A stretch of DNA of 64,000 nucleotides from Plumapathes pennacea (Eukaryota > Cnidaria > Anthozoa > Antipatharia > Myriopathidae). The position numbers were made by a program, and so were the translations under genes. The stretch lies in NCBI GenBank assembly GCA_964036295.1, contig OZ038467.1, forward strand, positions 18,635,670 to 18,699,669. The letters are read 5' to 3'. A model generated the notes under the pieces. The model saw only the letters and a program-made list of their open reading frames with translations, searched no databases and had not been told where the DNA came from. Of this stretch, positions 8,317 to 55,860 are shown one piece after another (the first letter of the stretch is position 1; every line of letters begins with the position of its first letter).

Positions 8317-8732
8317 GTGTTAGCCGCAAACACTTTCCGATTACCTATAACACATTGAAATCCATGAAGGCGGTCTATCATGAGCGTCATTTGTCTTGTT
8401 TATATGCAATAAATTCTGGTGCTCAAAGTCGACTGGTGAATATGAAGTGAGGGGAGGGGTGAGGTTATTTCAAAAATTGACTGCGATGAGAGGGAAGCCT
8501 ATGGAAGAGAGGGGTTTATTAGAAAATATACGGTAATTTTTTGTGTCGACGATTAATATATTATCCGCGCATTTTGGTGGGAAGTTGAAAATTTTGGCAA
8601 CTTCTGCACTTCGCGGCCAATAATGCTGACGAACTTGTTTTAACCAATCAGAAGGCATAGCAAACGCAAAACCAAAGCAATTACACAGTCACTCGATCTT
8701 CAACCAAGAACGGCAACATCGTACACAAAACC

Positions 8733-12623: not shown

Positions 12624-13257
12624 GGTCTATCATGCAAAACACTGGAACCCTAAAAACACTGGAATGCCGCACTGATTTTTTCCCCCTTACCCTGGGAGGC
12701 CTATGTAAAATTTGGACTTGGAACTTAGAGTTACTTGGAGGTTGCGATTTTGTAGAAGGGGCTGATTAAAAGATGAGATGAATGCAGAATGTACTGTATT
12801 TCTAGTCGGCAAAATACTGTGTAAAGTTAGATGTGGGAAATGTAAAGATATCACAAAATGTAAATATATCACAAAGCATCAAATGCGCGTCATTTGTCTT
12901 GTTTATATGCAATAAATTCTGGTGCTCGAAGTCGACAGGTGAAAATATGAGGGGAGGGGAGGGAGGTTATTTCAAAAATTGACCACGATAAGAGGGAAGC
13001 CTATGGAAGAGAGGGGTTTATTAGAAACTGGGGAGGGAGGGAGGGAGGGAAAGTTTACTAGAGCGGTTGAGATACGAAGCATTTTTTGGGTGCAATTTGG
13101 TGGGAATAAAAATTTTGGCAGGTTCTGCAGTTCGCAGTCTAGAATGCTGACGAACTTGTTTTAACCAATCAGAAGGCATAGCAAACGAAAGACCAAAACA
13201 ATCACACGATTATTACTCGACACATCCTCCTCTCCCCACCGGGACGAATAACCCATC

Positions 13258-13411
13258 GTAAGGCACTGGGACGAGTTTTATCAGTCCCCGTATGTTCGCG
13301 CCCAGGCCTGGTCAACAAGCTCGCGTTCGTGTGCACGTGCACCAGTGTTTTGGAAATTGGGTACATATTCTCCGATAACTGTGACAGAAACGACGATTTA
13401 TAAAGGTACGT
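13258..13411 (+). promoter_or_regulatory. Unit 3 conserved 5' segment with splice donor
   Basis: Putative first exon ending TTATAAAG|GTACGTAAG (GT at 13406-13407). An AACCAATCAGAAGGC box lies about 100 bp upstream. Near-identical to unit 5. Confidence 0.45.
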
Positions 13412-14376
13412 AAGTGAGATTTCTCTGTCAAACAAGGACTCGAATTATAAAACAGGCTTAGACAGTTCGAGACGTCAATTACTTCGCTCCAATGTCAACA
13501 TGCAAGAGATGCAACGGCTGGCACAGGTTTTTCAAAGCTTGTATGTGTTCAGTATAGTTATGTTCTTTCTCCGCCGCTTATTTTTGTACTGTTTGGTGTT
13601 TTATTCTAGAGTAGTGTGTGTTTTTTTCCGTTCCTCATGTACCGACCAGAGAAGATTGTATATCAAACTTCCCTATCCAGCGAATGAAGTTTATCCGTTG
13701 CACAAGTTCGGTTGTTTGAATCTTGGATAGCTCTAATCCAGTCGTTATCCAGCGGATAAGATATCCGTGCTGAGAAGGTGGTATAACTTTTAATCCTCCG
13801 AATAAAAATGTGGATAAAGAAGCACTCGAATTTAATTACATTTCCTTACTGGACGGCATGTGACGTGTTTTAAATGGGAGAGCTTTCATCGTGACGTATT
13901 TCCGTTCGCTCGCATCACCTGGGCATCAAAAGTTGTGAAGAGTTTGCTTATAACTGGAAGTTCAAAAATTGTTCCAGAAACTCTATTATTTTTGGAAAAA
14001 TTTGGAATAAAAGGAATAAAAATGCAAATCAAATTTCCAAGCAGATCTCTAAACTTGCACATTTCCAAAGAAACCTAGCATGGCCAAGCACCCTGAGAGG
14101 GTGAGAATTGTCGAAAAAATATAGGTTTCTTCTGGAGATGAAAGTGTCTGAAGATGCAGTAAACACTGCATAGAAGTACAACTATCTAATTGCAGTGTAC
14201 ACAAGAAATTTAAAACTATCAATGCCACCAATCTGTCAAATTGCATGAAAATTACCTAAGCAGGCTGACTATGTTCCATGGACATGCAATTTTATATGGG
14301 AGATTTTATCGTGACAGAATTCTGTTTGTTCGAATTGCCTCGCCATCAAAACGTCGCCTGTGTATGTGCACTGAAA

Positions 14377-14572
14377 CCTTTTACTACCAAGAGTGATCAA
14401 CTTCAATTTTCTCCTTCAGTTTCTCACTAAAAATATAAATTACAGTAAGAACTTGACTTTTGATAGCTTGCTCAGATAGTAGCTGATTGAACTATGAATT
14501 CTCATTACACCACTCATATATTTTTCTTAAAAAGTTGGAAGAATCTGAATTTTGAGCTTGGGAGTGAAAGGG
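14377..14572. mobile_element. TTAA-type MITE, unit 3 copy
   Basis: An element of about 195 bp with ends CCTTTTACTACCAAG and CTTGGGAGTGAAAGGG, followed by TTAA at 14573-14576. Copies occupy the same place in units 4, 5, 6 and 8; units 1, 2 and 7 lack the whole stretch. Confidence 0.65.
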
Positions 14573-15619
14573 TTAAATGATGGCTGGTTGATAGTTAAAA
14601 GTTGTATCAAAAGCGAAACTTTTTGTGGTAAAATTGAGAATGGGGAAAACGAATAGCATTTCTGGATGCGGGCACAGAGATATGGATACGCAAGGGAGAG
14701 AAGACACAATTTTACAGATTTGAAACTCGGAGCAGCACAAAAAAGCCTTTAATGGTCATAAACAGTGAGAAGGTGAGACTCAATTACCAGAAAAATATAG
14801 GTTCCCAGACATGAAGGTGCTCGAGGATGCAGTAATCACTGCACAGAAGTAAAACTATCCAATTGTCATTGATGGTTTTTGAAAACAAGTCGCCCCACAG
14901 CATACAAAGCAAATTAAATCTTTACTGCCACTGTAAATTAAGTACGTTTGACGGCCAGCAAAAGTGTACATGCCGTTCCTTAATGTCAGGAAAAGATTCC
15001 ATAAAACCTTCCATAAACATTGACAGGTCATGACAGTTATTGTTTGGGGAAAATAGAAGGAAATGAAAAGGTACTGTGCAAGTCACAAATTAAATCAGTT
15101 CAAAGCCCATAGGAAATGTACCTGCTATTTTATGACGTCCAAAAAAAAGCCTCCCACAGCTCTACATGACAGAATGTTTTATCCGATATTCAAGTGAACA
15201 TACAAATATCTCATAACATGGGCATTTGCAAGTGTAGTACTGTACACGTACCCTTGAAACTTATGAAGTTGATACACTAATATGCAGTGGAGCTAGATAA
15301 CCCCTCCCCTAGCTTTTTTGAAGCGGTATATAAAATGGATAGACAAATATGCAGTCAAGTTAGACCACTATACCCCTTAGTTTGATGTAGCTTTTGTTGT
15401 AGCCTGTGGTAATATGTGGTGACTTGAAAGTGCATTTGTCATTTTACCAGAAATACTGCCATATCCATGTATATCAACTTTAATATCAACTTGATTTTAA
15501 ATTTAGGTGGAGGGGTGGTCTAACCCCACTTTGTATCCACGCACCATTTGAAGATAGGAGAAGGAGGGGGGAGGGTCCATCATATCCACCACTTTTGCAA
15601 AGAAGAGAGTGGACTGACC

Positions 15620-15805
15620 ATGAACCAATTTTGTACACACAGGAGAAAAACCCACAAGAGTGATAGATGCGGTAAAACTTTTCCACAGAAGGTGAACCTG
15701 GCCATGTACCAACTTGTACATACTGTACTGGAGAAAATCTCGACAAGTGTGATAAATGCGGTAAAGCTTTTGCATATAAGAAGAACATGGCCAAACAACT
15801 TGTAA
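15620..15805 (+). other. Out-of-frame upstream ORF of zinc-finger gene 3
   Basis: The ATG at 15620 sits in the same context (GACCATGAACCAA) as the start of gene 1. It codes a decayed finger (SDRCGKTFPQKVNLAMYQLVH) and then, after the shared 5-bp insertion, runs out of frame to a stop at 15805. It overlaps the ATG of the finger frame (15787) by 19 bp. If present in the mRNA it would limit translation of the finger protein. Inference only. Confidence 0.5.
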
Positions 15806-17139
15806 GTACAAGAGAGAAGCCCCACAAGTGTGCTAAATGTGGTAAAGCTTTTACATGGAAGTCTGACTTAACTCACCACAAACTTCAACACACGGGAGAG
15901 AAACCCCACAAGTGTGACAAATGTGGTAAAGTTTTTACACGGAAGGGTCACCTGACCACGCACCAACTTTTACACACAGGTGAGAAGCCCCACAAGTGTG
16001 ATAAATGTGGTAAAGCTTTTACACAGAATGGTCACCTGGCCACGCACCAACTTGTACACACAGGAGAGAAGCCCCACAAGTGTGATAAATGTGGTAAAGC
16101 CTTTGCACACAAGGGTTACCTGGCCACGCACCAACTTCTACATACAGGAGAGAAACCCCACAAGTGTGGTAAATGTGGTAAAGCTTTTACATGCAAGGGT
16201 GACCTGGCCAAACATCAAGTTGTACATACAAAAGAGAAGCCCCACAAGTGCGATAAATGTGGTAAAGCTTTTACACAGAAGAGTAGCCTGGCCAAACACC
16301 AACTTGTACATACAAAAGAGAAGCCCCACAAGTGTGATAAATGTGGTAAAGCTTTTACACAGAAGAGTAACCTGACCACGCACCAACTTGTACATACAGG
16401 AAAGAAGCCCCACAAGTGTGATAAATGTGGTAAAGCCTTTACACACAAGGGTAACCTGACCATGCACCAACTTGTACATACAGGAGAGAAGCCCCACAAG
16501 TGTGATAAATGTGGTAAAGCCTTTGCACAGAAGGGTTACCTGACCATACACCAACTTGTACATACAGGAAAGAAGCCCCACAAGTGTGATAAATGTGGTA
16601 AAGCCTTTGCACAGAAGTGTAACCTGACCACACACCAAATTGTACATACAGGAGAGAAGCCCCACAAGTGTGATAAATGTGGTAAAGCCTTTACACACAA
16701 GGGTTACCTGACCATACACCAACTTGTACATACAGGAAAGAAGCCCCACAAGTGTGATAAATGTGGTAAAGCCTTTGCACAGAAGTGTAACCTGACCACG
16801 CACCAACTTGTACATACAGGAAAGAAGCCCCACAAGTGTGATAAATGTGGTAAAGCTTTTACAGGGAAAGATGGTTTAATCCAGCACCAATGTGTACACA
16901 CACCTAACAAGAAACTTCAACACAATGAAGAAAAGTGCTACACATGTGAAATATGCAGTGAAACCTTCACTGTTAAAGACAAACTGTCACAACACTTTTT
17001 GAAGCACAGAGATGAAGACCTTTACAGGTTTTATAAGTATGCTTATGAGTGTGATGTGTGTTGTGAATATTTTGCCCTTCAGGAAGACATGCAGGAGCAT
17101 GTTCAAAGTCACACTAAGACACAGCAAAGAAAACAGTAA
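15787..17139 (+). CDS. C2H2 zinc-finger protein 3
   Basis: 450 residues from the ATG at 15787: thirteen CX2CX12HX3H fingers from C15 to H371 with no lost ligand, then the C-terminal pair at C387-H407 and C422-H442. It ends in the longer tail TKTQQRKQ, shared only with gene 7. The finger just before the start has lost the codon for its first zinc His (NMAKQLVS), so the array proper starts at C15. Helices include WKSDLTH, RKGHLTT, CKGDLAK, HKGNLTM and QKCNLTT. Fingers 10 and 12 are near copies (QKCNLTT), as are 9 and 11 (KGYLTI). Linkers alternate TGEKPHK, TGKKPHK and TKEKPHK. Presumed nuclear DNA-binding protein of unknown target. Confidence 0.85.
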   Translation: MAKQLVSTREKPHKCAKCGKAFTWKSDLTHHKLQHTGEKPHKCDKCGKVFTRKGHLTTHQLLHTGEKPHKCDKCGKAFTQNGHLATHQLVHTGEKPHKCDKCGKAFAHKGYLATHQLLHTGEKPHKCGKCGKAFTCKGDLAKHQVVHTKEKPHKCDKCGKAFTQKSSLAKHQLVHTKEKPHKCDKCGKAFTQKSNLTTHQLVHTGKKPHKCDKCGKAFTHKGNLTMHQLVHTGEKPHKCDKCGKAFAQKGYLTIHQLVHTGKKPHKCDKCGKAFAQKCNLTTHQIVHTGEKPHKCDKCGKAFTHKGYLTIHQLVHTGKKPHKCDKCGKAFAQKCNLTTHQLVHTGKKPHKCDKCGKAFTGKDGLIQHQCVHTPNKKLQHNEEKCYTCEICSETFTVKDKLSQHFLKHRDEDLYRFYKYAYECDVCCEYFALQEDMQEHVQSHTKTQQRKQ

Positions 17140-18792: not shown

Positions 18793-20002
18793 TCCCCTCG
18801 CGTGTGCGATGGTAATAATCACGACGCTAATAGTATCGCCTTATTTGGAGACTCCACGCGGGTCGCCATCTCGAAATTTAATGTTCGTCAGTCACTTAGT
18901 CATCGTGCGACCTCGAGGCCAGGTGTCTAAGCATTGACGTAATAATTATCGATTAGCGTCTCCGCCAGTAGTTATACTGACACTCGGGAGAAAAAAAGAT
19001 TTAAACGAGGCGACAATGTACGTAACTGCGTTCGCGAAAATGAATTTGAAAACTAAAAAACTTGAAACAGAATAGTCTCGCGAAGCACGTCTTCAAAAGA
19101 GAAGGGAACAGACATGGGCAAGGCGGAATTGTGAAACGATCAAACAGCACCAGACACGTTTAGACGACAATCATGTTATGACCGACATCATCGTAAACAG
19201 AAGCGTGCCGAAGAAGCGACTCCGCAAAAAGAACTGCGCTTGAAATCAAATTGTGAGCTTCAGAAGCAAAAGCAGGCCGAAGAAAATACTTCGCAAAGAG
19301 AACACCGCTTGAAAGCCAATGGGGAGCTACAGGAGCAAAAGCGAACCGAAGAAAAACACTCCGCAAAGAGATCAGCGATTGAAAGCGAATCGGGAGCTTC
19401 AGCAACGGGCCAAGAAAATACTCTGTAAAGAGAACAGCGCAAGCAAGCAGGAGATTTCTTTGAGGCATCTGAGCACAACAAAGTACGATCGCGACGCCGT
19501 TTTGTGTTAAAATCAGATACTTATTCAGAAAGGACAAGCAAGAAAGGTCAGTCAGTGGAAATTGAACAATCATCGTGACAAATATATTCTATCCCATATC
19601 TTACGACTCGATCACTTAAAGAATCCAGTGCATGTTATCGAGAGTAAAAAAACGCATAGGAAGTCTATTCAATTGTACTGCTTATGAATTCGAAAATGGA
19701 AATCAGTGTTCCTTTCTTCCCGTTTTACGGCGGCCGACCAACTCAGTTCACAATTCAAGTATTAAATATTTGAGAATGTGTCAGGCAGACTGCATGAATT
19801 AATTCGGCGTGCCGACCGTGAGAAAGACGTACGGCATTACGCAATCGATTCTTTTTTTAACGCAAAAGTATACCACACACTATATTTTTTCTCCTTCTTT
19901 TGCGTGTAGCACTTGACTTCGAAGAAATGATTGCGTCAAACTTTCTGTAAACAGAGGCTGCTCTTGGTGAGCAGTACCAAAGTTAAAGTCCAAATCAATG
20001 GC
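18793..20002 (+). mobile_element. Family Z repeat, copy 1 (3' end lost)
   Basis: The repeat starts TCCCCTCGCGTGTGCG after ACTTG and is interrupted at 20002 by a LINE-associated repeat. Related copies are at 31566-33410, 44892-46376, 44715-47297 (reversed, interrupted) and 54720-55860. The complete right end seen elsewhere is CGTATTTCTAG followed by T. TC...CTAG ends recall Helitrons, but the rule of insertion after A is not met. The family is therefore left open. Confidence 0.6.
19017..19446 (+). pseudogene. Broken Arg/Gln/Glu-rich coiled-coil repeat ORF in family Z
   Basis: The ATG at 19017 opens a frame with MNLKTKKLETE, then TAG; continuing across stops and frame changes gives about 20-residue repeats of the type QREHRLKANGELQEQKRTEE. 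Such charged repeats are common at the N-terminus of Helitron/PIF1-like helicase proteins of cnidarians. That link is inference. At least two stops or frameshifts make it non-functional. Confidence 0.55.
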
Positions 20003-24808: not shown

Positions 24809-25950
24809 TGTAGCAGTTCTGAATATAAAGATGCCGGAGCACTGACTCATCTTGTGCTAATGTCCCCGTAGCCTCAGTTTGGTGAAGCTTGCCCATGCCA
24901 TCCGCAAGATCAGTCATTCATGAATTTGATGTATGGGCCATATGTTGAAAACATGATTATACAAAATGTAATACTTTTTTGACCTGTTACATGTATGGCA
25001 TTTCTCATGGAAACCTCATCAGTCTTTGTTGAATTAGTGACTGGTGACTGGCAAATTGATGTTTGTATGCTATTGATTAGAAAGTTTGTAATTTCTTTAT
25101 ACATTTTGATATTTCTGAATCTCAGAAAGCCTAAGGTTATGATGGTAATATGATCACATGTTGAATAATTTGTGGGTCATGCAACATCAGCTATAAAAGG
25201 CCTGTTGTAAACAAGCAATAATGATTATCTGTGATTTTTAAAGGGCTTGTTTATCCGATTACCCTTCATGCGTCGAAATCCGTGAAGGGGTCTATCATGC
25301 AAAACACTGGAACCCTAAAAACACTGGAATGCCGCACTGATTTTTCCCCCTTACCCTGGGAGGCCTATGTAAAATTTGGACTTGGAACTTAGAGTTACTT
25401 GGAGGTTGCGATTTTGTAGAAGGGGCTGATTAAAAGATGAGATGAATGCAGAATGTACTGTATTTCTAGTCGGCAAAATACTGTGTAAAGTTAGATGTGG
25501 GAAATGTAAAGATATCACAAAATGTAAATATATCACAAAGCATCAAATGCGCGTCATTTGTCTTGTTTATATGCAATAAATTCTGGTGCTCGAAGTTGAC
25601 AGGTGAAAATATGAGGGGAGGGAAGGGGAGGGAGGTTATTTCAAAAATTGACCACGATAAGAGGGAAGCCTATGGAAGAAAGGGGTTTATTAGAAACTGG
25701 GGAGGGAGGGAGAGTTTACTAGAGCATTTACGGTATAAATTTTCTGTGTCGACGGTTGAGATACGAAGCATTTTTTGGGTGCAATTTGGTGGGAATAAAA
25801 ATTTTGGCAGGTTCTGCAGTTCGCAGTGTAGAATGCTGACGAACTTGTTTTAACCAATCAGAAGGCATAGCAAACCAAAGGTCCAAAACAATCACACGAT
25901 TTATATTACTCGACACATCCTCCTCTCCCCACCGGGACGAATAACCCATC

Positions 25951-26104
25951 GTAAGGCACTGGGACGAGTTTTATCAGTCCCCGTATGTTCGCGCCCAGGC
26001 CTGGTCAACAAGCTCGCGTTCGTGTGCACGTGCATCAGTGTTTTGGAAGTTGGGTACATATTCTCCGATAACTGTGACAGAAACGACGATTTATAAAGGT
26101 ATGT
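25951..26104 (+). promoter_or_regulatory. Unit 5 conserved 5' segment with splice donor
   Basis: Putative first exon ending TTATAAAG|GTATGTAAG (GT at 26099-26100). An AACCAATCAGAAGGC box lies at about 25852-25866. Near-identical to unit 3. Confidence 0.45.
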
Positions 26105-27068
26105 AAGTGAGATTTCTCTGTCAAACAAGGACTCGCATTATAAAACAGGCTTAGACAGTTCGAGACATCAATTACTTCGCTCCAATGTCAACATGCAAGA
26201 GATGCAACGGCTGGCACAGGTTTTTCAAAGCTTGTATGTGTTCAGTATAGTTATGTTCTTTCTCCGCCGCTTATTTTTGTACTGTTTGGTGTTTTATTCT
26301 AGAGTAGTGTGTGTTTTTTTCCGTTCCTCATGTACCGACCAGAGAAGATTGTATATGAAACTTCCCTATCCAGCGAATGAAGTTTATCCGTTGCACAAGT
26401 TCGGTTGTTTGAATCTTGGATAGCTCTAATCCAGTCGTTATCCAGCGGATACATTTATCCGTGCTGAGAAGGTGGTATAACTTTTAATCCTCCGAATAAA
26501 AATGTGGATAAAGAAGCATTCGAATTTAATTACATTTCCTTTCTGGACGGCATGTGACGTGTTTTAAATGGGAGCTTTTATCGTGACGTATTTCCGTTCG
26601 CTCGCATCACCTGGGCATCAAAAGTTGTGAAGAGTTTGCTTATAACTGGAAGTTCAAAAATTGTTCCAGAAACTCTATTATTTTTTGGAAAAATTTGGAA
26701 TAAAAGGGATAAAAATGCAAATCAAATTTCCAAGCAGATCTCTAAACTTGCACATTTCAAAAGAAACCTAGCATGGCCAAGCACCCTGAGAGGGTGAGAA
26801 TTGTCGAAAAAATATAGGTTTCTTCTGGAGATGAAAGTGTCTGAAGATGCAGTAAACACTGCATAGAAGTATGGCTATCTAATTGCAGTGTACACAAGAA
26901 ATTTAAAACTATCAATGCCACCAATCTGTCAAATTGCATGAAAATTACCTAAGCAGGCTGACTATGTTCCATGGACATGCAATTTTATATGGGAGGTTTT
27001 ATGGTGACAGAATTCTGTTTGTTCGAATTGCCTCGCCATCAAAACGTCGCTTGTGTATGTGCACTTAA

Positions 27069-27258
27069 ACCTTTTACTACCAAGAGTGATCAACTTCAAT
27101 TTTCTCCTTCAGTTTCTCACTAAAAATATAAATTACAGTAAGAACTTGACTTTTGATAGCTTGCTCAGATAGTAGCTGATTGAACTATGAATTCTCATTA
27201 CACCACTCATATTTAAAAGGTTGGGAGAATCTGAATTTTGAGCTTGGGAGTGAAAGGG
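27069..27258. mobile_element. TTAA-type MITE, unit 5 copy
   Basis: Flanked by TTAA at 27065-27068 and 27259-27262, with ends ACCTTTTACTACCAAG and CTTGGGAGTGAAAGGG. Confidence 0.7.
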
Positions 27259-28309
27259 TTAAATGATGGGTGGTTGATAGTTAAAAGTTGTATCAAAAAC
27301 AAAACTTTTTGTGGTAAAATTGAGAATGGGGAAAACGAATAGCATTTCTGGATGCGGGCACAGAGATATGGATACACAAGGGAGAGAAGACACAATTTTA
27401 CAGATCTCGAAACTCGGAGCAGTACAAAAAAGCCTTTAATGGTCATAAACAGTGAGAAGGTGAGACTCAATTACCAGAAAAATATAGGTTCCCAGACATG
27501 AAGGTGCTCGAGGATGCAGTAATCACTGCACAGAAGTAAAACTATCCAATTGTCATTGATGGTTTTTGAAAACAAGTCACCCCACAGCATACAAAGCAAA
27601 TTAAATCTTTACTGCCACTGTAAATTAAGTACGTTTGACGGCCAGCAAAAGTGTACATGCCGTTCCTTAATGTCAGGAAAAGATTCCATAAAACCTTCCA
27701 TAAACATTGACAGGTCATGACAGGTATTGTTTGGGGAAAATAGAAGGAAATGAAAAGGTACTGTGCAAGTCACAAATTAAATCAGTTCAAAGCCCATAGC
27801 AAATGTACCTGCCATTTTATGACGTCCAAAAAAAGGCTCCCATAGCTCAACATGACAGAATGTTTTATCCGATATTCAAGTGAACATACAAGTATCTCAT
27901 AACATGGCCATTTTGCAAGTGTAGTGCTGTACACATACCCTTGAAACTTATGAAGTTGATACACTAATATGCAGTGGAGCTAGACGACCCCTCCCCTAGC
28001 TTTTTGAAACGGTATATAAAATGGATAGACAAATATGCAGTCAAGCTAGACCACTCTACCCCTTAGTTTGATGTAGCTTTTGTTATAGCCTGTGGTAATA
28101 TGTGGTGACTTGAAAGTGCATTTGTCATTTTACCAGAAATACTGCCATATCCAATAATGTATATCAACTTTAATATAAACTTGATTTTAAATTTAGGTGG
28201 AGGGGTGGTCTAACCCCACTTTGTATCCACGCACCATTTGAAGATAGGAGAAGGAGGGGGGAGGGTCCATCATATCCACCACTTTTGCAAAGAAGAGAGT
28301 GGACTGACC

Positions 28310-28561
28310 ATGAACCAATTTTGTACACACAGGAGAAAAACCCACAAGAGTGATAGATGCGGTAAAACTTTTCCACAGAAGGTGAACCTGGCCGTGTACC
28401 AACTTGTACATACTGTACTGGAGAAAATCTCGACAACTGTGATAAATGCGGTAAAGCTTTTGCATATAAGAAGAACATGGCCAAACAACTTGTACGTACA
28501 AGAGAGAAGCCCCAGAAGTGTGCTAAATGTGGTAAAGCTTTTACATGGAAGTCTGACTTAA
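28310..28561 (+). other. Out-of-frame upstream ORF of zinc-finger gene 5
   Basis: Equivalent to the upstream ORF of gene 3: ATG in GACCATGAACC, a decayed finger, then out of frame past the 5-bp insertion to a stop at 28561. It overlaps the first 85 bp of the finger frame. Confidence 0.45.
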
Positions 28562-29892
28562 CTCACCACAAACTTCGACACACGGGAGAGAAACCCCACA
28601 AGTGTGACAAATGTGGTAAAGTTTTTACACGGAAGGGTCACCTGACCAGGCACCAACTTTTACACACAGGTGAGAAGCCCCACAAGTGTGATAAATGTGG
28701 TAAAGCTTTTACACAGAAGGGTAGCCTGGCCACGCACCAACTTGTACACACAGGAGAGAAGCCCCACAAGTGTGATAAATGTGGTAAAGCCTTTGCACAC
28801 AAGGGTTACCTGGCCACGCACCAACTTCTACATACAGGAGAGAAACCCCACAAGTGTGGTAAATGTGGTAAAGCTTTTACATGCAAGGGTGACCTGGCCA
28901 AACATCAAGTTGTACATACAAAAGAGAAGCCCCACAAGTGCGATAAATGTGGTAAAGCTTTTACACAGAAGGGTAGCCTGGCCAAACACCAACTTGTACA
29001 TACAAGAGAGAAGCCCCACAAGTGTGATAAATGTGGTAAAGCTTTTACACAGAAGAGTAACCTGACCACGCACCAACTTGTACATACAGGAGAGAAGTCC
29101 CACAAGTGTGATAAATGTGGTAAAGCCTTTACACACAAGGGTAACCTGACCATGCACCAACTTTTACATACAGGAGAGAAGCCCCACAAGTGTGATAAAT
29201 GTGGTAAAGCTTTTACACAGAAGGGTAGCCTGGCCAAACACCAACTTGTACATACAAGAGAGAAGCCCCACAAGTGTGATAAATGTGGTAAAGCCTTTAC
29301 ACACAAGGGTTACCTGACCACCCACCAACTTGTACATACAGGAGAGAAGCCCCACAAGTGTGATAAATGTGGTAAAGCCTTTGCACACAAGGGTTACCTG
29401 ACCATACACCAACTTCTACATACAGGAAAGAAGCCCCACAAGTGTGATAAATGTGGTAAAGCCTTTGCACACAAGGGTTACCTGACCATACATCAACTTG
29501 TACATACAGGAAAAAAGCCCCACAAGTGTGATAAATGTGGTAAAGCTTTTACACAAAAGAGTAACCTGACCAGGCACCAACTTGTACATACAGCACAGAT
29601 GCTCCACAAGTGTGATAAATGTGGTAAAGCTTTTACAGGGAAAGATGGTTTAATCCAGCACCAATGTGTACACACACCTAACAAGAAACTTCAAAACAAT
29701 GAAGAAAAGTGCTACACATGTGAAATATGCAGTGAAACCTTCACTGTTAAAGACAAACTGTCACAACACTTTTTGAAGCACAGAGATGAAGACCTTTACA
29801 GGTTTTATAAGTATGCCTATGAGTGTGATGTGTGTTGTGAATATTTTGCCCTTCAGGAAGACATGCAGGAGCATGTTCAAAGTCATAACTAA
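28477..29892 (+). CDS. C2H2 zinc-finger protein 5
   Basis: 471 residues: fourteen intact fingers from C15 to H399, then the C-terminal pair at C415-H435 and C450-H470, ending SHN. It is the duplicate of gene 3, but from finger 9 on the order differs: 9 repeats finger 6 (QKGSLAK), 11 and 12 are near copies (HKGYLTI), and 13 (QKSNLTR followed by linker TAQMLHK) matches the end of gene 2 rather than gene 3. Within-array unequal exchange or conversion has thus occurred since the duplication. No lost ligands. Presumed DNA-binding nuclear protein of unknown target. Confidence 0.85.
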   Translation: MAKQLVRTREKPQKCAKCGKAFTWKSDLTHHKLRHTGEKPHKCDKCGKVFTRKGHLTRHQLLHTGEKPHKCDKCGKAFTQKGSLATHQLVHTGEKPHKCDKCGKAFAHKGYLATHQLLHTGEKPHKCGKCGKAFTCKGDLAKHQVVHTKEKPHKCDKCGKAFTQKGSLAKHQLVHTREKPHKCDKCGKAFTQKSNLTTHQLVHTGEKSHKCDKCGKAFTHKGNLTMHQLLHTGEKPHKCDKCGKAFTQKGSLAKHQLVHTREKPHKCDKCGKAFTHKGYLTTHQLVHTGEKPHKCDKCGKAFAHKGYLTIHQLLHTGKKPHKCDKCGKAFAHKGYLTIHQLVHTGKKPHKCDKCGKAFTQKSNLTRHQLVHTAQMLHKCDKCGKAFTGKDGLIQHQCVHTPNKKLQNNEEKCYTCEICSETFTVKDKLSQHFLKHRDEDLYRFYKYAYECDVCCEYFALQEDMQEHVQSHN

Positions 29893-31798: not shown

Positions 31799-32213
31799 TG
31801 TACGTAACTGCGTTCACGAAAATGAATTTGAAAACTAGAAAACTTGAAACAGAACAGTCTGGCGAAGCACGTCTTCAAAAGAGAAGGGAACAGACACGGG
31901 CAAGGCGGAATTGTAAAACGATCAAACAGCACCAGACACGTTTAGACGACAATCATGTTATGACCGACATCATCGTAAACAGAAGCGTGCCGAAGAAACG
32001 ACTCCGCAAAAAGAACTGCGCTTGAAATCAAATTGTGAGCTTCAGAAGCAAAAGCGGGCTGAAGAAAATACTTCGCAAAGAGAACACCGCTTGAAAGCCA
32101 ATCGGGAGCTGCAGGAGCAAAAGCAAACCGAAGAAAAACACTCCGCAAAGAGATCAGCGCTTGAAGGCGAATCGGGAGCTTCAGGAGCAACGGGCCAAGA
32201 AAATACTCTGTAA
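31799..32213 (+). pseudogene. Coiled-coil repeat ORF relic in family Z, copy 2
   Basis: An ATG-led stretch (MYVTAFTKMNLKTRKLETEQ) passes through KRREQTRARRNC, shifts frame near 31940-32020, and continues as repeats ELQKQKRAEENTSQREHRLK and RELQEQKQTEEKHSAKR. The heptad-like Arg/Gln/Glu pattern predicts helix. Broken by stops; function unknown. Confidence 0.55.
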
Positions 32214-32640
32214 AGAGAACAGCGCTTGAAAGCAAGCAGGAGATTTCTTTGAGGCATCTGAGCACAACAAAGTACGATCGTGACGCCGTTTTGTGTTAAA
32301 CTCAGATACTTATTCAGAAAGGACAAGCAACAAAAGTCAGTCAGTGGAAATTGAACAATCACCGTGACAAATATATTCTATCCCATATCTTGTGACTCGA
32401 TCACTTTAAGAATCCAGTGCATGCAGTCCAGAGTAAAAAAAAAAAAAAAAAAAAACGCATAGGAAGCCTATTCAATTGTACTGCTTATGAATTCGAAATT
32501 GGAAATCAGTGTTTCTTTCTTACCGTTTTACGGCGGCCGACCAACTCAGTTCACAATTCAAGTATTAAATGTTTGAGAATGTGTCAGGCAGACTGCATGA
32601 ATTAATTCGGCGTGCCGACCGTGAGAAAGACGTACGGCAT

Positions 32641-33526: not shown

Positions 33527-34437
33527 CTAGCGGGACCCCCGTAAAATACGGGGATCGGATTTCTTTTTACCTAATATTTTTTGTCTTTTTTTTCCTTTTT
33601 AAATTCCATTTCAAGCATTTCTAACGCAGTTTACCGCGTCAAAGTACAAATTTCTGTAGTGCATGTATACCACTCAACCGCACTTGACTCGTCGAACCAC
33701 CGATCGGTCGACATCAAAATCTCCCCGTTTTTCAAACATGCGGCCATCCAGACACCTGACAGCTGAAATTCTTTTTCTAAAGTCAAACGGGATTCTCACC
33801 TTCAGTAATCGCGTCCCGTGGGCTTGGTTGAAAGGGTACGATCGAGATTTCTGGCTTACTTGTCCCGGCGCGTAAAATACGGGGATCGGATTTCTTTTTT
33901 CTAACCCTAACATCAAAATCTCTCTGTAGTCCATAACCACTCGACTGTACCACTCAGTGAATTGCCGGTCGATCGACAACAAAAGCTCCCCGTTTTTCGA
34001 AATTCTTTTCTTTCTTTTCTCCTTTTTGAATTCAATTTCGAGCATCTCAAACGCAGTTTACCGCGTCAAAGTACTAACGTCCCTGCAGTGCATGTACCAC
34101 TCGATCGTACTCGACTCGTCGAACCACCGATCGTCCGACATCAAAATCTTCCCGTTTTTCGAACATGCGGCAGCATCAGCCCCTTATCCAGACACCTGAC
34201 AGCTGAAATTCTATTTCTACACTAAGACGGAATTTTCACCTTCAATATTCGCATCCTCGGAAAGGCTACGGTCGAGAAGATTTCTGGCTTGCTATTCCCG
34301 GCGATTCAATTCGAATTGACGATATGGTAATTATGACTAACGAGTAGGCAAGCATTACTGTTGCGTCAGAAATTCAAACACATTATCTAATTACCGGTTT
34401 AATTTGTTACGTCACCAATCGAAATTATATCAATTTG

Positions 34438-34472
<35 letters not shown>

Positions 34473-34510
34473 AGCCGCGGTCAGCGGTTGCTTAGCGTAT
34501 TATCTCTATA
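33527..34510 (-). mobile_element. Short non-autonomous Helitron 1 of tandem array
   Basis: Minus-strand 3' end: hairpin CCCCGTA-TTT-TACGGGG (33537-33553), then GTCCCG, then CTAG (33527-33530), followed by T: the Helitron 3' signature. The other end has the (TG)n and GCTAAGCAACCGCTGACC block near the Helitron 5' end. An internal second, broken 3' end at about 33868-33905 shows it is a recombinant or nested copy. Confidence 0.75.
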
Positions 34511-35229
34511 CTAGCGGGACCCCCGTAAAATACGGGGATCGAATTTCTTTTTTCCTAATGTTTTATCTGTCTTTTTTTTCCTGTTTGAATTCCATTTTGA
34601 GCATCTCGAACGCACTATACTGTGTTCAAGTACAAACCTCTTTGAGCATTTACCATTCAACCGTATTCGACTCGTCAAACCACCGACTGATCGACATCAA
34701 ACTCTCTCTGTAGCACTCGACCCGTAGCACTCGGTGAATCGCCGATCGATCGACATTCGAAATCTCCCCGTTTTTAGAAACTCTTTCTTTCTTTTCTCCT
34801 TTTTGAATTCAATTTCGAGCATCTCAAACGCAGTTTACCGCGTCAAAATACAAATTTCCCTGTAGTGCATGTACCACTCGACCGTACTCGACTCGGCGAA
34901 CCACCGATCGTCTGACATCCAAACCTTCCCGTTTTTCGAACATGCGGCAGCATTACCCCGCCATCCAGTCAGTTGACACTCTGAAATTCTCTTTCTAAAC
35001 TCAAACGGAATTCTCACCTTCAGTAATCGCGTCCCGTGGGCTTGGTTGAAAGGCAGCGGTCGAGAGGATTTCTGGCCTGCTTTTCCCGGCGATTCAATTC
35101 GAATTGACGATACAGTAATTATGACTAACGATCGTACGCGAGCATTAATGTTGCGTCGAAATTCAAACCACGCATTATCTAATTACCGGTTTAATTTGTT
35201 ACGTCACCAATCGAAATTATATCAATTTG

Positions 35230-35266
<37 letters not shown>

Positions 35267-35307
35267 AGCCGCGGTCAGCGGTTGCTTAGCGTATTATTAT
35301 ATAGAGA
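34511..35307 (-). mobile_element. Short non-autonomous Helitron 2 of tandem array (797 bp)
   Basis: Complete copy on the minus strand: 5' end TCTCTATATAATAATACGC (at 35307), a (TG)n run (35233-35262), and a 3' hairpin plus CTAG (34511-34514). It is separated from Helitron 3 by only TA, so the two are head-to-tail. No transposase is encoded. Confidence 0.85.
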
Positions 35308-35309
35308 TA

Positions 35310-35809
35310 CTAGCGGGACCCCCGTAAAATACGGGGATCGGATTTCTTTTTTCCTAACATTTTTTCTGTTTTTTTTTTTTTTTTTTTTTTTTTTCCATTT
35401 CGAATTCCATTTTGAGCATTTCGAACGCAGTTTGCAGTGTCCAAGTACAAACGTCCCTGTAGTGCATGTACCACTCGATCATACTCGACTCGTCGAACCA
35501 CCGATCGTCCGACATCAAAATCTTCCCGTTTTTCGAACATGCCGCAGCATCAGCCCGACATCCAGCCACTTGATACTCTGAAATTCTTTTTCTAAACTCA
35601 AACGGAATTCTCACCTTCAGTAATCGCGTCCCGTGGGCTTTGTTGAGAAATTTCTGGCTTGCTTTTCCCGGCGATTCAGTTCGAATTGACGATATGGTAA
35701 TTATGACTAACGAGTAGGCAAGCATTACTGTTGCGTCATAAAATTTAAACCACGCATTATCTAATTACCGTTTTAATTTGTTACGTCACCAATCGAAATT
35801 ATCAATTTG

Positions 35810-35868
<59 letters not shown>

Positions 35869-35902
35869 AGCCGCGGTCAGCGGTTGCTAAGCGTATTATT
35901 AA
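35310..35902 (-). mobile_element. Short non-autonomous Helitron 3 of tandem array
   Basis: The 3' hairpin and CTAG are at 35310-35340 on the minus strand. The body matches Helitron 2 with an internal T-run (35369-35394), and the (CA)n block is longer (about 35814-35866). The 5' end stops at TAATAATACGC; the terminal TCTCTATA is lost at the border with the central segment. Confidence 0.8.
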
Positions 35903-36842
35903 ATGGTCGTGACTAAACTGGATACTCCAAAATCAGGTTTCCGAGTGAAGACTGGGACCAAAACAACGAGTTATCGGCGAAGTCGTCCGGAGCCGTTTAC
36001 GAACATTGTGGACAAAAAAACGACCTCGGTTCGTCTGAAGCATCTAACACCGGAAGACAGTCAAATAAAATTCGGCACTGGAAAGGTTTTAGAAGGAAAA
36101 AATTAGCTCGGGGAGAAAATACTAAAGAAGAAAGGCTTGTTATGGCTGATCTGGCACAGATGAATATTGACACCGAAGATAAAAAAATCCCACCGCGTGA
36201 ACTGTTCCGGAGAGCGATTGAAACGGCTTGTGTACGATCCTGTGTTTCTTGATCAGTCTTAACTCCAGAAGACGAACGCATTCACGATAAGACATGCTAT
36301 GATAAGACATTTAAGCATTTAAGATTTAAGCAAGTAAATAGGAACAAAAATGAAGCCCATAGAAGCCAACAGTTATAGACGGATCAGATTTCCAACGTAT
36401 CCTAAATTTATCCGTATTTACTGTATTAGGATGCTTATATAGATAAGTTATTTTCATCCAAAACCACTGTGTTCTCGAGCAAATGGCCGGCTGACCCGAA
36501 ATTTTACAAATAAACAGTAATATTGTCCTTTTCACGTTCACGACTACAATGCTTCTTGTGTATATCTGTTGACTGGTTACAGTTTCGACCCATGTCTTGA
36601 GCCGCTTCAGGTTTATTTGGAGTTGACCTCCACGTCCGCGTAAAAGGAACACAGGCGGCGCGACGCGGCCAGCCGAACGGACTTGCTAATGCACGCCAAG
36701 AACTTTCAAAACATCAACGTCACTGTCGTACTGTTTTCGGAACACGGTCCGAGCTGACGAAAATTTAATTTTTGATTCGGTCCCAGTTTCCTCTCGGAAA
36801 CCTGATTTTGGAGTATCCAGTTTAGTCACAACCATTATTATA
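35903..36842. other. Segment between divergent Helitrons, with terminal inverted repeat
   Basis: About 940 bp flanked on both sides by Helitron 5' ends. Its edges (35901-35962 and 36776-36838) are about 60-bp imperfect inverted repeats of each other, containing GGATACTCCAAAATCAGG. The middle is not repeated in the window. It may be captured host DNA or the inner part of a larger element. It contains one notable open frame (35917-36252). Confidence 0.6.
35917..36252 (+). CDS. Unrecognised 111-codon open frame in the inter-Helitron segment
   Basis: Open from just after a TAA to a TGA at 36250-36252. There is no ATG near the beginning; the only clear internal ATG is at 36142 (MADLAQMNIDTEDKK). 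The deduced sequence is hydrophilic and mixed-charge (KIRHWKGFRRKKLARGEN, then KIPPRELFRRAIETAC), with no low complexity, and looks more protein-like than the surrounding repeats. It could be a captured exon fragment. I recognise no family. Confidence 0.25.
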   Translation, partial: TGYSKIRFPSEDWDQNNELSAKSSGAVYEHCGQKNDLGSSEASNTGRQSNKIRHWKGFRRKKLARGENTKEERLVMADLAQMNIDTEDKKIPPRELFRRAIETACVRSCVS

Positions 36843-37617
36843 TCTCTATATAATAATACGCTAAGCAACCGCTGACCGCGGCTCATGTGTGTGTGTGTGT
36901 GTGTGTGTGTAACAAATTGATATTTTCGATTGGTGACGTAACAAATTAAACCGGTAATTAGACAATGTCGTGGTTTGAATTTCTGACGCAACATTAATGC
37001 TTGCCTACTCGTTAGTCATAATTACCATATCGTCAATTCGAACTGAATCGCCGGGAAAAGCAAGCCAGAAATCTCTCAACAAAGCCCACGGGACGCGATT
37101 ACTGAAGGTGAGAATTCCGTTTGAGTTTAGAAAAAGAATTTCAGAGTATCAAGTGACTGGATGTCGGGCTGATGCTGCGGCATGTTCGAAAAACGGGAAG
37201 ATTTTGATGTCGGACGATCGGTGGTTCGACGAGTCGAGTATGATCGAGTGGTACATGCACTACAGGGACGTTTGTACTTGGACACTGCAAACTGCGTTCG
37301 AAATGCTCAAAATGGAATTCGAAATGGAAAAAGAATTTCAGAGTGTCAAATGTCTGGATGGCGGGCTGATGCTGCCGCATGTTCGAAAAACGGGGAGATT
37401 TTAATGTCGGACGATCGGTGGTTCGACGAGTCGAGTATGATCGAGTGGTACATGCACTACAGGGACGTTTGTACTTTGACGCGGTAAACAGTCGAATACG
37501 GTTGAAATTGAGTTCGAGATGCTCAAATTGGAATTCAAAAAGGAAAAAAAGACAAAAAATATTAGGAAAAAAGAAATTCGATCACCCGATCCCCGTATTT
37601 TACGGGGGTCCTGCTAG
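36843..37617 (+). mobile_element. Complete short non-autonomous Helitron 4 (775 bp), opposite orientation
   Basis: 5' end TCTCTATATAATAATACGC at 36843, preceded by A. 3' hairpin CCCCGTA (37591-37597), TTT, TACGGGG (37601-37607), then GTCCTG, CTAG (37614-37617), and T at 37618. A-[TC...CTAG]-T with a hairpin 6 nt before the end is the full Helitron diagnostic set. A (TG)n run follows GGCTCATG near the 5' end. The frame at 36997-37404 (SDDRWFDESS motif, partly duplicated) recurs in the other copies but shows no recognisable enzyme. Confidence 0.9.
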
Positions 37618-37892
37618 TTATATAGAGATTCCGCGCATTTTGGCGGGAAGTTTAAAATTTTGGCAGGTTCCCCATTTCGCGGCCAAGAATGCTGAGGAAC
37701 TTGTATTAACCAATCAGAAGGCATAGCAAACGCAAAACCAACACAATCACACGATTACTCGATTATTCGACACTCACCCGAAACTTAAACATCTGTAGTG
37801 TAACATTGGAAACGAGGAACCTACCAGGTAGCCAGAAACCAGGGCAGAAGCTAGACCGTTACACACTGGTGAAGCTGGGGGGGGGGGGGGGG

Positions 37893-51284: not shown

Positions 51285-53310
51285 CTAGCTCTGCATTGTC
51301 TGAGAGATAATATGCTTCTTATAAAGACGTTTAAAAACTTTTAGCGAAATACAGTTCTTTAAACCTATTGGAACAGAATTCCATATTTTCGCAGAAGCGT
51401 ATTTGATGCCAAATTTTCCATGGTTCAAATTTTGAAACGGTAAGTAAAGATTCTTGTTTGATTTCGACCGAGTGCCGTAAGTATGAAGTGAGGTGAGATC
51501 CGTAAAATAACTGGAAAAAAATGTCGGGCAGCTGATCTGCAGAGTATCGAAAAGCCAATTCCCCAAGTTGGAAATCAACAATTTCATAGATGTTTAGAAC
51601 TTCTAGTTTGTTAAAAATTGGTTTGCTCGCAGATCTCCTCTCACTGAAAGTAATAGCTCTTAGAGCTCTTTTTTGCAGAATATAAATAGGATTAAGTTTT
51701 GATTTGTAATTACTTCCCCAAATTAAAGTACAATAAGATATATATGGGTATATTAAATTGTAATAAAGATTCAGTAGAATATCCGCACTTAAATAATGCC
51801 TGGCTTTATAAAGAATGCCGATATTTTTTTATATTTTACGAGTAACGTAATCAATTATTTATTCCATGAAATTTCCTCATCAACGATTACACCCAAGAAC
51901 TTTGTTTGTGTTTCTTGCTTTATACACTCTCCTGCCAATTGAAGAGAAATATGAGGAAAGTTCGTGGACACATTAGATAATTTTTTTCTCGTACCGAAGA
52001 GAATGAACTTTGTTTTTGATAGGTTTACGCTTAACTTATTGGCAAGGAGCCAATCATAAAGAGATCCTAGTTCCTTATTAAGAACTGAGACTAGAGTTTC
52101 AATCTTTTTATGTTTGTAAAGAAGATTCATGTCATCTGCATAAAGTAAAAGATGTATGGTTCTAGTTACATACTGTGCGTCATTAACATAAATAAGAAAA
52201 AGGATCGGGCCAAGAATAGATCCTTGAGGGACGCCACAAGTGAGTGGCGTCAAATTAAAATCGGTCCCATTTACATTAACAAACTGTCTTCGATTTTCTA
52301 GGTAGCTTTGAAAAAGCTTGTTGCTGTGACCAGTTATACCATAATAATTAAGTTTATTTATCAAAATATCGTGGTTCACCGTATCAAACGCTTTTGATAA
52401 GTCTAAAAGACGCCCATAGAGTATTGGCCATTTTGAAATGCATCTATTATTCTTGAGACGAAATCAATTGTTGCTAATGCCGTGTTTAGCTTTTCTCTGA
52501 ACCCGAATTGATAATCAAAAAGCAAATGATTACTTTCGAGATGAGACACCAGTGAATTACAAATAAGCTTCTCAAATATTTTCGAGATGGTTGGTAGCAG
52601 AGATAAAGGCCGGTAATTTGAAACAAGCTCTCTGTCCCCACCTTTAAACAATAGAATGACTTTTGCGATTTTCATAGAGTCGGGAAACGTGGAAGAATCT
52701 ATAGACGTATTATAGATGTTGGTCAGTGGCTCATATACATATTCTGCGACTTTCTTTAAGATACGTATTGGAATGTCGTCAACACCAACTGCTTTAGAGC
52801 AGTCTAAATTGTATAAATGATCTAATACCGTTAAAGAAGAAACGTGATCGAATTTAAGCTCATTTTTTGTGGGGACTCTCATCCAATCTTTGAAATTTCT
52901 TTGACTTGAAGGTAGCTTTTTAGCTAACCCTGGACCAACACTAGTGAAAAATTTATTAAATGTGTTTGCAATATCTATATCTTTAACAAAACGTTTATCA
53001 TGATTTAATATTCCTGATACACTAATTGGTTCCGCCTTCTTTTTGTTCAATACCTCGTTTATGATACCCCAGGTCGCTCTTAAATTTCCCTGAGCTTTCT
53101 TTAACATAGTCTCATAGTAATTTTCTTTTTGGTGAAACGAATTAAATGATATAATTTATTACGGTAATGGCAAAAACGCTGTATATTATTTGGCGTCGGT
53201 GATTTTACCTTCGCTCTGTAGAGCTTGTTGTTTCTTTTAATCGATTTTAGAATACCCGCAGTCATCCACGGGTTACGAGCAGTTCTTGAGCTCCTTGTGA
53301 CACATTTCAT
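51285..53310 (-). pseudogene. LINE reverse transcriptase with frameshifts
   Basis: RT motifs in order: NYRPLSLLPTISKIFEKLI, QFGFREKLNTALA, a broken (L)DLSKAFDTV box, CGVPQGSILGPILFLIYVND, YADD, and TKFLGVIVDE. The 3' part contains HTYGTRSKSNKNLY and ASAKIWNSVP, typical of jockey/CR1-group C-termini. A 1-nt deletion at about 52403 breaks the catalytic motif A. Further breaks are near 53110 and between 51855 and 51587. PWMTAGILKSIK upstream (53275-53240) belongs to the endonuclease-RT linker. Confidence 0.85.
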
Positions 53311-53347
53311 GGGAAAATATATTTATTGAAAGATGCTGTTATCGAAC

Positions 53348-54103
53348 TTATGAAAAACTTGTATAATTGTTCATTGGGATTTTTACTATCGTATAGATTG
53401 ACTGCCAATTTATCGTTGAAATTTCACGTCTGAAGTGTTCTTCATTGCCCAAAGAATATTCGCGTTTGAAAAATTTCTTCCTTGTGATTTTGTTCTTACC
53501 GTATTGGATTATAAAAACTGGTAAGTGATCTGAAATATCAGTGTATAATATACCAGGAATAGTATTCTCTGCTATATCCAAATTGTTTATATAAATATTA
53601 TCGATTAAAGTTGCACTATCTACAGTAATTCTAGTTGGTTTTATGATTGTAGGGAAAAGTGAATACGATAACATTGCATTGAAAAACGAATTAGTAGCAG
53701 TGTGTTTAGAACTCTTTAACAAGTCTATATTAAAATCTCCAGCCAAATAACAAGGCCTTGTACTGTTATCCAATTTGTCCAATGGACTTTGAAGACAACT
53801 TAGAAAAGTATCAATATCTGTTTTGGGCGGTTTATAAATGACTCCGATAAGCTTTCGATGATTGCTCTTTTCGATATCTACAAACAAAATTTGTGACTTG
53901 TTGCTATTATAGGCCAACTGATCAGAAAGTCTGAAGTTGAACTCATTGCTAATGTATAATCCTACTCCGCCGCCTCCGTCCTTAGTTGGTCTATTTAGGA
54001 AAATAGGTTTATGATAACCTTGGAGTTCAAAGGAGTTTACATCATCTTTTTCTTTTAACCACGTCTCGGTTAGTGCAATGACATTGAAATGCAAATTTAA
54101 CAA
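53348..54103 (-). pseudogene. LINE AP-endonuclease domain, N-terminally truncated
   Basis: Contains ALTETW, GGGGVGLYI, GDFNIDLL, DNIYINN and SDHLPVF, the catalytic series of the exonuclease-endonuclease-phosphatase fold that nicks target DNA. The first 30 or so residues with the initial catalytic Asn are absent. A frameshift near 53370 separates it from the linker. Confidence 0.85.
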
Positions 54104-54719: not shown

Positions 54720-55860
54720 TCCGCGAGCGTAAGCGATGGTAATAATCACAACGCTAATGCAGTAGTATCGCCTTATTTGGAGACTCTAAGCGGGTCGCCA
54801 TCTCGAAATTTAATGTTCGTCAGTCCGCCATCGTACGACCTCAAGGCCAGGTGCCTAAGCAATGACGTAATAATTATGTATTAGCGTCTCCGCCAGTAGT
54901 TATACTGACACTCGGAAGAAAACAAGGTTTGAACGAAGCTACAATGTACGTAACTGCGTTCACGAAAATGAATTTGAAAACTAGAAAACTTGAAACAGAA
55001 TAGTCTCGCGAAGCCCGTCTTCAAAAGAGAAGGGAACAGACACGGGCAAGGCGGAATTGTGAAATGATCAAACAGCACCAGACACGTTTAGACGACAATC
55101 ATGTTATGACCGACATCATCGTAAACAGAAGCGTGCCGAAGAAACGACTCCGCAAAAAGAACTGCGCTTGAAATCAAATTGTGAGCTTCAGAAGCAAAAG
55201 CGGGCTGAAGAAAATACTTCGCAAAGAGAACACCGCTTGAAAGCTAATCGGGAGCTACAGGAGCAAAAGCGAACCGAAGAAAAACACTCCGCAAAGAGAT
55301 CAGCGCTTGAAAGCGAATCGGGAGCTTCAGGAGCAAAGGGCCAAGAAAATACTCTGTAAAGAGAACAGCGCTTGAAAGCAAGCAGGAGACTTCTTTGATG
55401 ACCTGAGCACAACAAAGTACGATCGCGACGCCGTTTTGTGTTAAACTCAGATACTTATTCAGAAAGGACAAGCAACAAAGGTCAGTCAGTGGAAATTGAA
55501 CAATCACCGTGACAAATATATTCTATCCCATATCTTGTGACTCGATCACTTTGAGAATCCAGTGCATGCAGTCCAGAGTAAAAAAAACCGCATAGGAAGC
55601 CTATTCAATTGTACTGCTTATGAATTCGAAATTGGAAATCAGTGTTTCTTTCTTACCGTTTTACGGCGGCCGACCAACTCAGTTCACAATTCAAGTATTA
55701 AATATTTGAGAATGTGTCAGGCAGACTGCATGAATTAATTCGGCGTGCTGACCGTGAGAAAGACGTACGGCATTACGCAATCGATTCTTTTTTCAGCGCA
55801 AAAGTATACCACACACCATATTTTTTCTCCTTCCTTTGCGTGTAGCACTTGACTTCGAAG
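54720..55860 (+). mobile_element. Family Z repeat, copy in unit 8 (3' end lost)
   Basis: Starts TCCGCGAGCGTAAGCG. Coding relic with KRREQTRARRNC and ELQKQKRAEENTSQREHR at about 54970-55365, with an early TAG. Cut at 55860 by a G-run and the GC-hairpin repeat. The cut differs by about 120 bp from the similar junction at 20002. Confidence 0.6.

Follow-up and report, generated by a model that had tools for sequence, protein, structure and literature searches.

Head-to-tail Helitron arrays of Plumapathes pennacea: probable growth by successive, polar insertion at the left end of resident copies

Introduction

Tandem Helitrons are cited as the footprints of rolling-circle concatemers, and the question raised by the locus described here is whether its array arose in that way. 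The 64,000-nt stretch that we analysed (the window; Plumapathes pennacea assembly GCA_964036295.1, contig OZ038467.1, 18,635,670-18,699,669 of the forward strand) carries at 33527-37628 three minus-strand Helitrons arranged head to tail (copies 1, 2 and 3) and one plus-strand copy (copy 4). A first-pass annotation of this DNA had explained the head-to-tail order by rolling-circle transposition past the terminator. The family has numerous exact junctions, and the relatedness and order of the joined copies allow that reading to be tested. We find that neighbouring copies are not sisters, and we consider it likely that the arrays of the family were built by successive single insertions, mostly at the A/TC boundary of a resident copy (the slash marks a junction or point of insertion).

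Results

The family and the sample

In their sequence the elements conform to ordinary canonical Helitrons of Helraiser type, and the four copies in the window belong to one non-autonomous family. They display the features of canonical Helitrons (Helitron1), namely 5' TC and 3' CTRR ends, a hairpin near the 3' end and insertion at A/T without target duplication. As the first-pass annotation had described, each of the four copies carries the hairpin CCCCGTA-3 nt-TACGGGG, then 6 nt, then CTAG; the window contains four perfect matches to this 17-nt hairpin and a fifth that differs at 2 positions, against 0.06 expected. The 5' core is present in 4/4 copies and TCTCTATATAATA is exact in copies 2 and 4, in agreement with the 5' end previously reported for at least two of them. 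The left end of Helibat presumably also has CTATATAATAA near its start.

The search for further copies that the annotation had recommended was productive, as the 17-nt 3' end of the family has 1357 matches at ≤1 mismatch in the genome (290 Mb in 24 contigs, the window lying on contig C6), compared with 0 for the reversed control. Copy 4 as a query gave at least 211 matches, and 20 places (L009-L028) were drawn from the best-scoring, most clustered of these; unless stated otherwise, the counts below refer to these 20 regions and the window. They yielded 91 copies in which both ends were present, plus 32 single ends. Two of the 91 were dropped as their starts had been taken from the wrong strand, leaving 89 for the distance comparison, and three more, with a divergence from the consensus above 0.2, were left out of the tree, order and trimmed-distance tests, which reduced the copies to 86 and the adjacent pairs from 38 to 36.

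The family boundaries are A/TC and CTAG/T, and the flanks outside the elements are mostly unrelated. Shared boundaries away from TC...CTAG and a lack of A/T sites, which would have spoken against Helitrons, were looked for among the fetched copies and were not found. Among 96 5' ends, 37 lie directly behind a family 3' end, where the upstream base is G, while the base upstream of the remaining 59 is A in 51, T in 7, C in 1 and G in none. Similarly, for 72 of 107 3' ends no canonical 5' end follows directly, and the next base is T in 64, C in 4, G in 3 and A in 1, a few of these being loose pattern matches rather than true ends.

Neighbouring copies are not sisters

The joined copies are strongly oriented. 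Head-to-tail pairs, defined by a distance of up to 60 nt from 3' end to 5' core, number 59, including 35 exact zero-spacer junctions, a figure that depends on the rule applied (37 when up to 5 mismatches are allowed, 35 when an exact spacer is required); the others have short spacers, for example TA or TTATTATTATTA. With a limit of 90 nt between cores, head-to-head pairs were found three times, none of them exact, and tail-to-tail pairs, with a limit of 90 nt between ends, five times. On contig C1, for which the list of 3' ends appears full, comprises exact ends only and was not picked for clusters, 8 of the 78 exact 3' ends lie no more than 1300 bases from a further exact end of the same strand, compared with 0.41 expected at random on either strand.

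Exact CTAG/TC junctions are what joined circles would give, several joined copies being deposited in one event by rolling-circle read-through or from a multimeric circle. Helraiser makes joined circles (PMC4778049), and tandem arrays in plants and bats are cited in support of rolling-circle transposition (PMC5876387). This explanation predicts that adjacent copies are each other's closest relatives, and the relationships among the copies do not fit it. Based on the first 480 bases with the CA tract masked, the median distance between the members of the 38 adjacent head-to-tail pairs was 0.095 and that of all pairs 0.094, and the mismatch at 24 diagnostic columns was 0.549 for adjacent vs. 0.516 for shuffled copies (P 0.89). 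The adjacent copy was the nearest relative in 0 of the 38 pairs, and none of 36 adjacent pairs were sisters in the tree. When the first 19 columns were also trimmed in a later test, the median distance was 0.090 to the neighbour (36 pairs) vs. 0.030 to the nearest copy at another locus (86 copies), and the neighbour was the closer of the two in 0/36 pairs. A single burst from one master copy would mask such a contrast; since close relatives do exist elsewhere, the structure was detectable. In this sample, the non-sister neighbours contradict an origin of the arrays as rolling-circle concatemers, and with it the explanation offered by the first-pass annotation. Further, read-through alone yields neither the inverted copy 4 nor the TA and TTATTATTA spacers, and we regard joint deposition as very improbable.

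Satellite-like growth, in which one tandem pair is multiplied by unequal crossing-over or segmental duplication, also has to be weighed. In 11 of 86 cases, against 4.8 expected, a copy has its nearest relative within its own locus, and six places on contig C3 (11.47-11.84 Mb) have near-identical patterns of match to copy 4 and are maybe segmental duplicates of one array. Recent growth of this kind predicts near-identical neighbours, yet the nearest relative was the adjacent copy in 0/86 cases, and we hold it to be a most unlikely source of the arrays.

Order of insertion within arrays

Successive insertion can proceed from either side of a resident. If newcomers enter at its A/TC boundary, the 5' copy of a pair is the younger one; if they enter behind its CTAG, the 3' copy is. 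Across 23 arrays with 51 ordered pairs, the terminal branch lengthens from 5' to 3' (net +25, permutation P 0.0014), and it is shorter in the first copy than in the last in 17 arrays and longer in 6 (Wilcoxon P 0.0054). A second proxy of age, the distance to the nearest copy at another locus, points in the same direction (P 0.0094; 16 vs. 7 arrays, P 0.0123). The number of arrays was 22 in the zero-gap analysis and 23/24 in the later one, as dropped copies were handled differently. In the window the terminal branches are 0.008, 0.018 and 0.022 from copy 3 to copy 1.

These data bear directly on the possibility that newcomers are inserted at G/T just behind the CTAG of a resident, where the RepHel transposase also nicks. 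Such insertion would produce the identical junction and leave the AT-rich 3' flank of the resident downstream; it is compatible with the zero-gap pairs taken alone, and Du et al. 2008 (PMC2267711) raise it for one maize pair. However, G is found upstream of a 5' end only directly behind a family 3' end (37/96, compared with 0/59 elsewhere), so that insertion at G/T behind a resident would be off the rule followed by the family. Over whole arrays the 3'-most copies look older. Moreover, in three head-to-tail pairs the resident starts at TATAATAAT and looks split at TCTCTA/TATAATAAT, a form that insertion behind CTAG does not give. We therefore think it unlikely that the arrays grew from their 3' side, and the sequential self-insertion that we propose is probably polar.

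In the proposed process, a newcomer would enter in the same orientation as the resident, exactly between the host A and the 5' TC of the resident, which is a canonical A/T site. The insertion would yield the CTAG/TC junction and at the same time restore an A/TC site for the next round. Less often, entry may occur at another A/T within or just beside the AT-rich left end.

Target preference

An A/T site without further preference would serve both orientations, since AT is self-complementary, but the preference found is asymmetric. For the composition of the 3' flanks, we left out flanks that did not start with T, held family words or lay within microsatellites; 34 flanks were kept before the microsatellite filter and 24 after it, and 23 entered the AT-composition test. 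At positions +7 to +11 these 23 sites are 93% AT vs. 62.6% in the background, the maximum of 20000 random draws over all windows being 80.9%, and 15/23 are all-AT there vs. 9.4% of background sites; the motif was suggested by and tested on one and the same sample. The 5' flank shows a weaker AT excess (74.8% vs. 61.9%, P 0.015). Some family copies lie in TTA/TAA microsatellites, in part opposed to one another within one tract (L012:3350-3375, L010:3971-4032, L024:3586-5696).

We considered an AT-rich target motif as the sole cause of homing and rejected it. The left end of the family does have AT at +7 to +11, yet by an AT-only score its own 5' end ranks just within the best 20% of A/T sites. 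Since base composition alone is insufficient for homing, we infer a specific recognition of the left end by RepHel; recognition or nicking of the resident left end by the transposase would make that end the target. We tentatively suggest, with less confidence than we place in successive insertion itself, that left-end recognition doubles as target selection, such that the resident A/TC is nicked as if transposition were starting and the incoming strand is joined to it.

Several observations weigh against growth at the left end and have to be set beside the evidence for it. As a sample, the 20 regions over-represent clusters and sequences similar to copy 4. Zero-gap pairs alone agree with the order in 14/23 cases, which is not significant (Wilcoxon P 0.27), the trend being carried by the arrays as a whole and by pairs whose copies overlap slightly or leave a small gap; terminal branches are sampling-dependent. 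Upstream of the three apparently split residents a TCTCTA stub is expected; L025 has it, L020 lacks it, and in L016 the place is out of view. The excess of nearest relatives within the same locus and the modest rank of the left end by AT-only score, both given above, count on this side as well.

Anatomy of the array in the window

The array is composed of the following features, given with the corresponding empty site:

33527-34510, minus strand: copy 1, Helitron; CTAG 3' end (33527-33530) and, next to copy 2, an altered 5' end
33537-33553, minus strand: 3' hairpin of copy 1
33868-33884, minus strand: internal hairpin-like stretch of copy 1, 2 mismatches vs. the 3' hairpin
34440-34470, no strand given: CA tract of copy 1
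34511-35307, minus strand: copy 2, complete Helitron, TC...CTAG
34521-34537, minus strand: 3' hairpin of copy 2
35232-35264, no strand given: CA tract of copy 2
35308-35309, no strand given: TA spacer between copies 2 and 3
35310-35901, minus strand: body of copy 3, its 5' end interrupted by a terminal-inverted-repeat element and copy 4
35320-35336, minus strand: 3' hairpin of copy 3
35812-35866, no strand given: CA tract of copy 3
35902-36836, no strand given: terminal-inverted-repeat element of ~935 bp within the 5' end of copy 3; ends set by eye
36843-37617, plus strand: copy 4, complete Helitron, reversed; inserted at A/T within the interrupted 5' end of copy 3
36886-36910, no strand given: TG tract of copy 4
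37591-37607, plus strand: 3' hairpin of copy 4
37618-37628, minus strand: 5' terminus of copy 3, TCTCTATATAA, closing the array on its outer side and adjoined by the host A on the minus strand
8543-8577, plus strand: empty site GTGTCGACGATTAATATATTATCCGCGCATTTTGG in a paralogous unit

Most of what the first-pass annotation had said of this array was borne out: it consists of short Helitrons in two orientations, with canonical ends, A/T sites and non-autonomous copies; copies 2 and 3 stand head to tail with just TA between them; and a CA or TG tract lies near the 5' end of all four copies. Its placement of the array at a single site in unit DNA is upheld by the empty site near 8.56 kb, where the joined host flanks align across the junction. 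Copy 4 is, as described, complete, reversed and inserted at A/T, but the array does not end with it. On the minus strand the order is host A, TCTCTATATAA, copy 4, terminal-inverted-repeat element and body of copy 3; since the first 5' bases of copy 3 lie at 37618-37628, beyond both the element and copy 4, the array extends to 37628. As the 5' end of copy 3 lies outside copy 4, the latter sits inside the broken left end of the former.

A plain terminal-inverted-repeat transposon was considered and rejected, since the TTATATAGAGA that follows copy 4, despite its resemblance to an inverted terminus, represents the interrupted 5' end of copy 3. The separate terminal-inverted-repeat element at 35902-36836 has the minus-strand ends AATGGTTGTGACTAAACTGG... 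and ...CCAGTTTAGTCACGACCATT, which differ at one base; its terminal inverted repeat is AATGGTTGTGACTAAACTGGATACTCC.

Copy 1, whose altered 5' end reads TATAGAGATAATACGC, is perhaps internally composite. The stretch at 33868-33884 looks like a damaged second 3'-end hairpin within it, as if two elements had fused or an internal duplication had occurred. At window 34498-34510, L010:2391 and L010:6907, TATAGAGA or TAGAGA replaces the first bases of the 5' end and resembles a flipped TCTCTATA; the replaced bases of these residents may be the trace that a former head-to-head pair left behind.

Autonomous-type partners

The first-pass annotation had also called for a search for an autonomous partner, and two RepHel-coding elements were found in the genome. 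Partner A (L009:3870-L010:281, 6312 bases) begins with the TCTCTATATAATAATACGC of the family, shares its last ten bases and abuts family copies on both sides with no spacer. Its 3' hairpin stands at the usual place and has a different stem (CCGTGGAA-G-TTCCACGG, then GTCCCGCTAG); the folding energies as DNA are -7.8 kcal/mol (z -2.9) for the family hairpin with its flanks and -7.6 kcal/mol (z -3.4) for the partner A hairpin. Partner A encodes Helitron_like_N and PIF1 pieces. Partner B, in L016, is covered from within its Rep part to the 3' end, has the usual family hairpin, and in two reading frames matches Helraiser (7lcc) in the Rep and helicase parts (E 1.1e-122 and 2e-144). GLPHCH and YLFKYVYKG occur in both partners and the PIF1 helicase in L016 is close to that of Helraiser; the partners have the HUH Rep with two tyrosines and the PIF1-type helicase, the reading frames of both partners being broken as read. 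Over its first 484 bases, copy 4 matches the first 493 of partner A at 90% identity, and the last 362 bases of copy 2 and the last 365 of copy 4 are 87% and 72% identical, respectively, to the end of partner B. Judging from these shared ends, the family would be mobilised by the Helraiser-type RepHel transposase of its partner elements.

The N-terminal coding part of partner A (L009:4853-5457) has charged tandem repeats, and 69-bp tandem repeats in the window (19207-19402, 31983-32235, 55129-55381) appear, by eye only, to resemble them in character.

Setting of the array

The window consists mostly of repeated units with C2H2 zinc-finger arrays built of 84-bp finger repeats, and zinc-finger proteins account for 2/5 of the open reading frames scanned in it. 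The 40 longest self-matches listed are 84.8-96.6% identical (for example, 12610-16863 vs. 25275-29553 at 96.6%). A single zinc-finger unit is broken by the Helitron array. On the minus strand, 52403-54103 resembles the remains of a non-long-terminal-repeat retrotransposon, with an endonuclease/exonuclease/phosphatase match (7.8e-09) and a reverse transcriptase match (7.5e-05) under its cut-off. A scan for transfer RNA genes found none.

Discussion

Among the systems nearest to the family are Helibat1/Helraiser and their non-autonomous HelibatN partners, which share the TC and CTAG ends, the 3' hairpin and A/T insertion (PMC4778049). The AT preference of Helraiser is likewise strongest on the 3' flank (PMC4778049), as is that of the family at +7 to +11. 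In contrast to Helraiser, the family has an internal CA/TG tract, internal repeats and frequent exact head-to-tail arrays; on Helraiser retransposition, 701 sites are reported to show no clustering round donor sites (PMC4778049). Helentron/DINE-1 (HINE) elements are also short, non-autonomous and of the rolling-circle type with an internal microsatellite. However, DINE-1 types are described with subterminal inverted repeats and TT insertion (PMC4067079), compared with TC...CTAG and A/T here, and we rejected membership in Helentron, DINE-1 or Helitron2 since the family inserts at A/T and not at TT.

Tandem Helitrons have been described elsewhere. The maize pair of Du et al. 2008 consists of two adjacent unlike elements which, like ours, are head to tail with a CTAG/TC junction and are not tandem repeats; the choice between insertion at G/T behind one and at A/T before the other is left undecided there (PMC2267711). 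That is one pair of undecided order, whereas the family provides 24 arrays and a test of polarity. Rice CentHel elements are likewise tandem and are centromeric; they are truncated and, by the title cited in PMC10095026, ascribed to rolling-circle amplification, whereas the family comprises many complete, mutually distant copies that are clustered on several contigs. The two origins named for a set of three tandem copies in Metarhizium are insertion at the 5' end and rolling circles (PMC5148889). In the mainly open-access literature searched, as far as its available text goes, we found no statistical test of the order of Helitrons within arrays.

Cumulatively, our findings suggest that head-to-tail junctions alone are an unsafe proof of concatemer formation. 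They point to self-targeting at the left end, which could be tested in the existing Helraiser system. IS200/IS605-type bacterial HUH transposons target their own left cleavage site, and if the proposed process is true, the family would be their eukaryotic counterpart, homing to itself, sparing host genes and building polar arrays.

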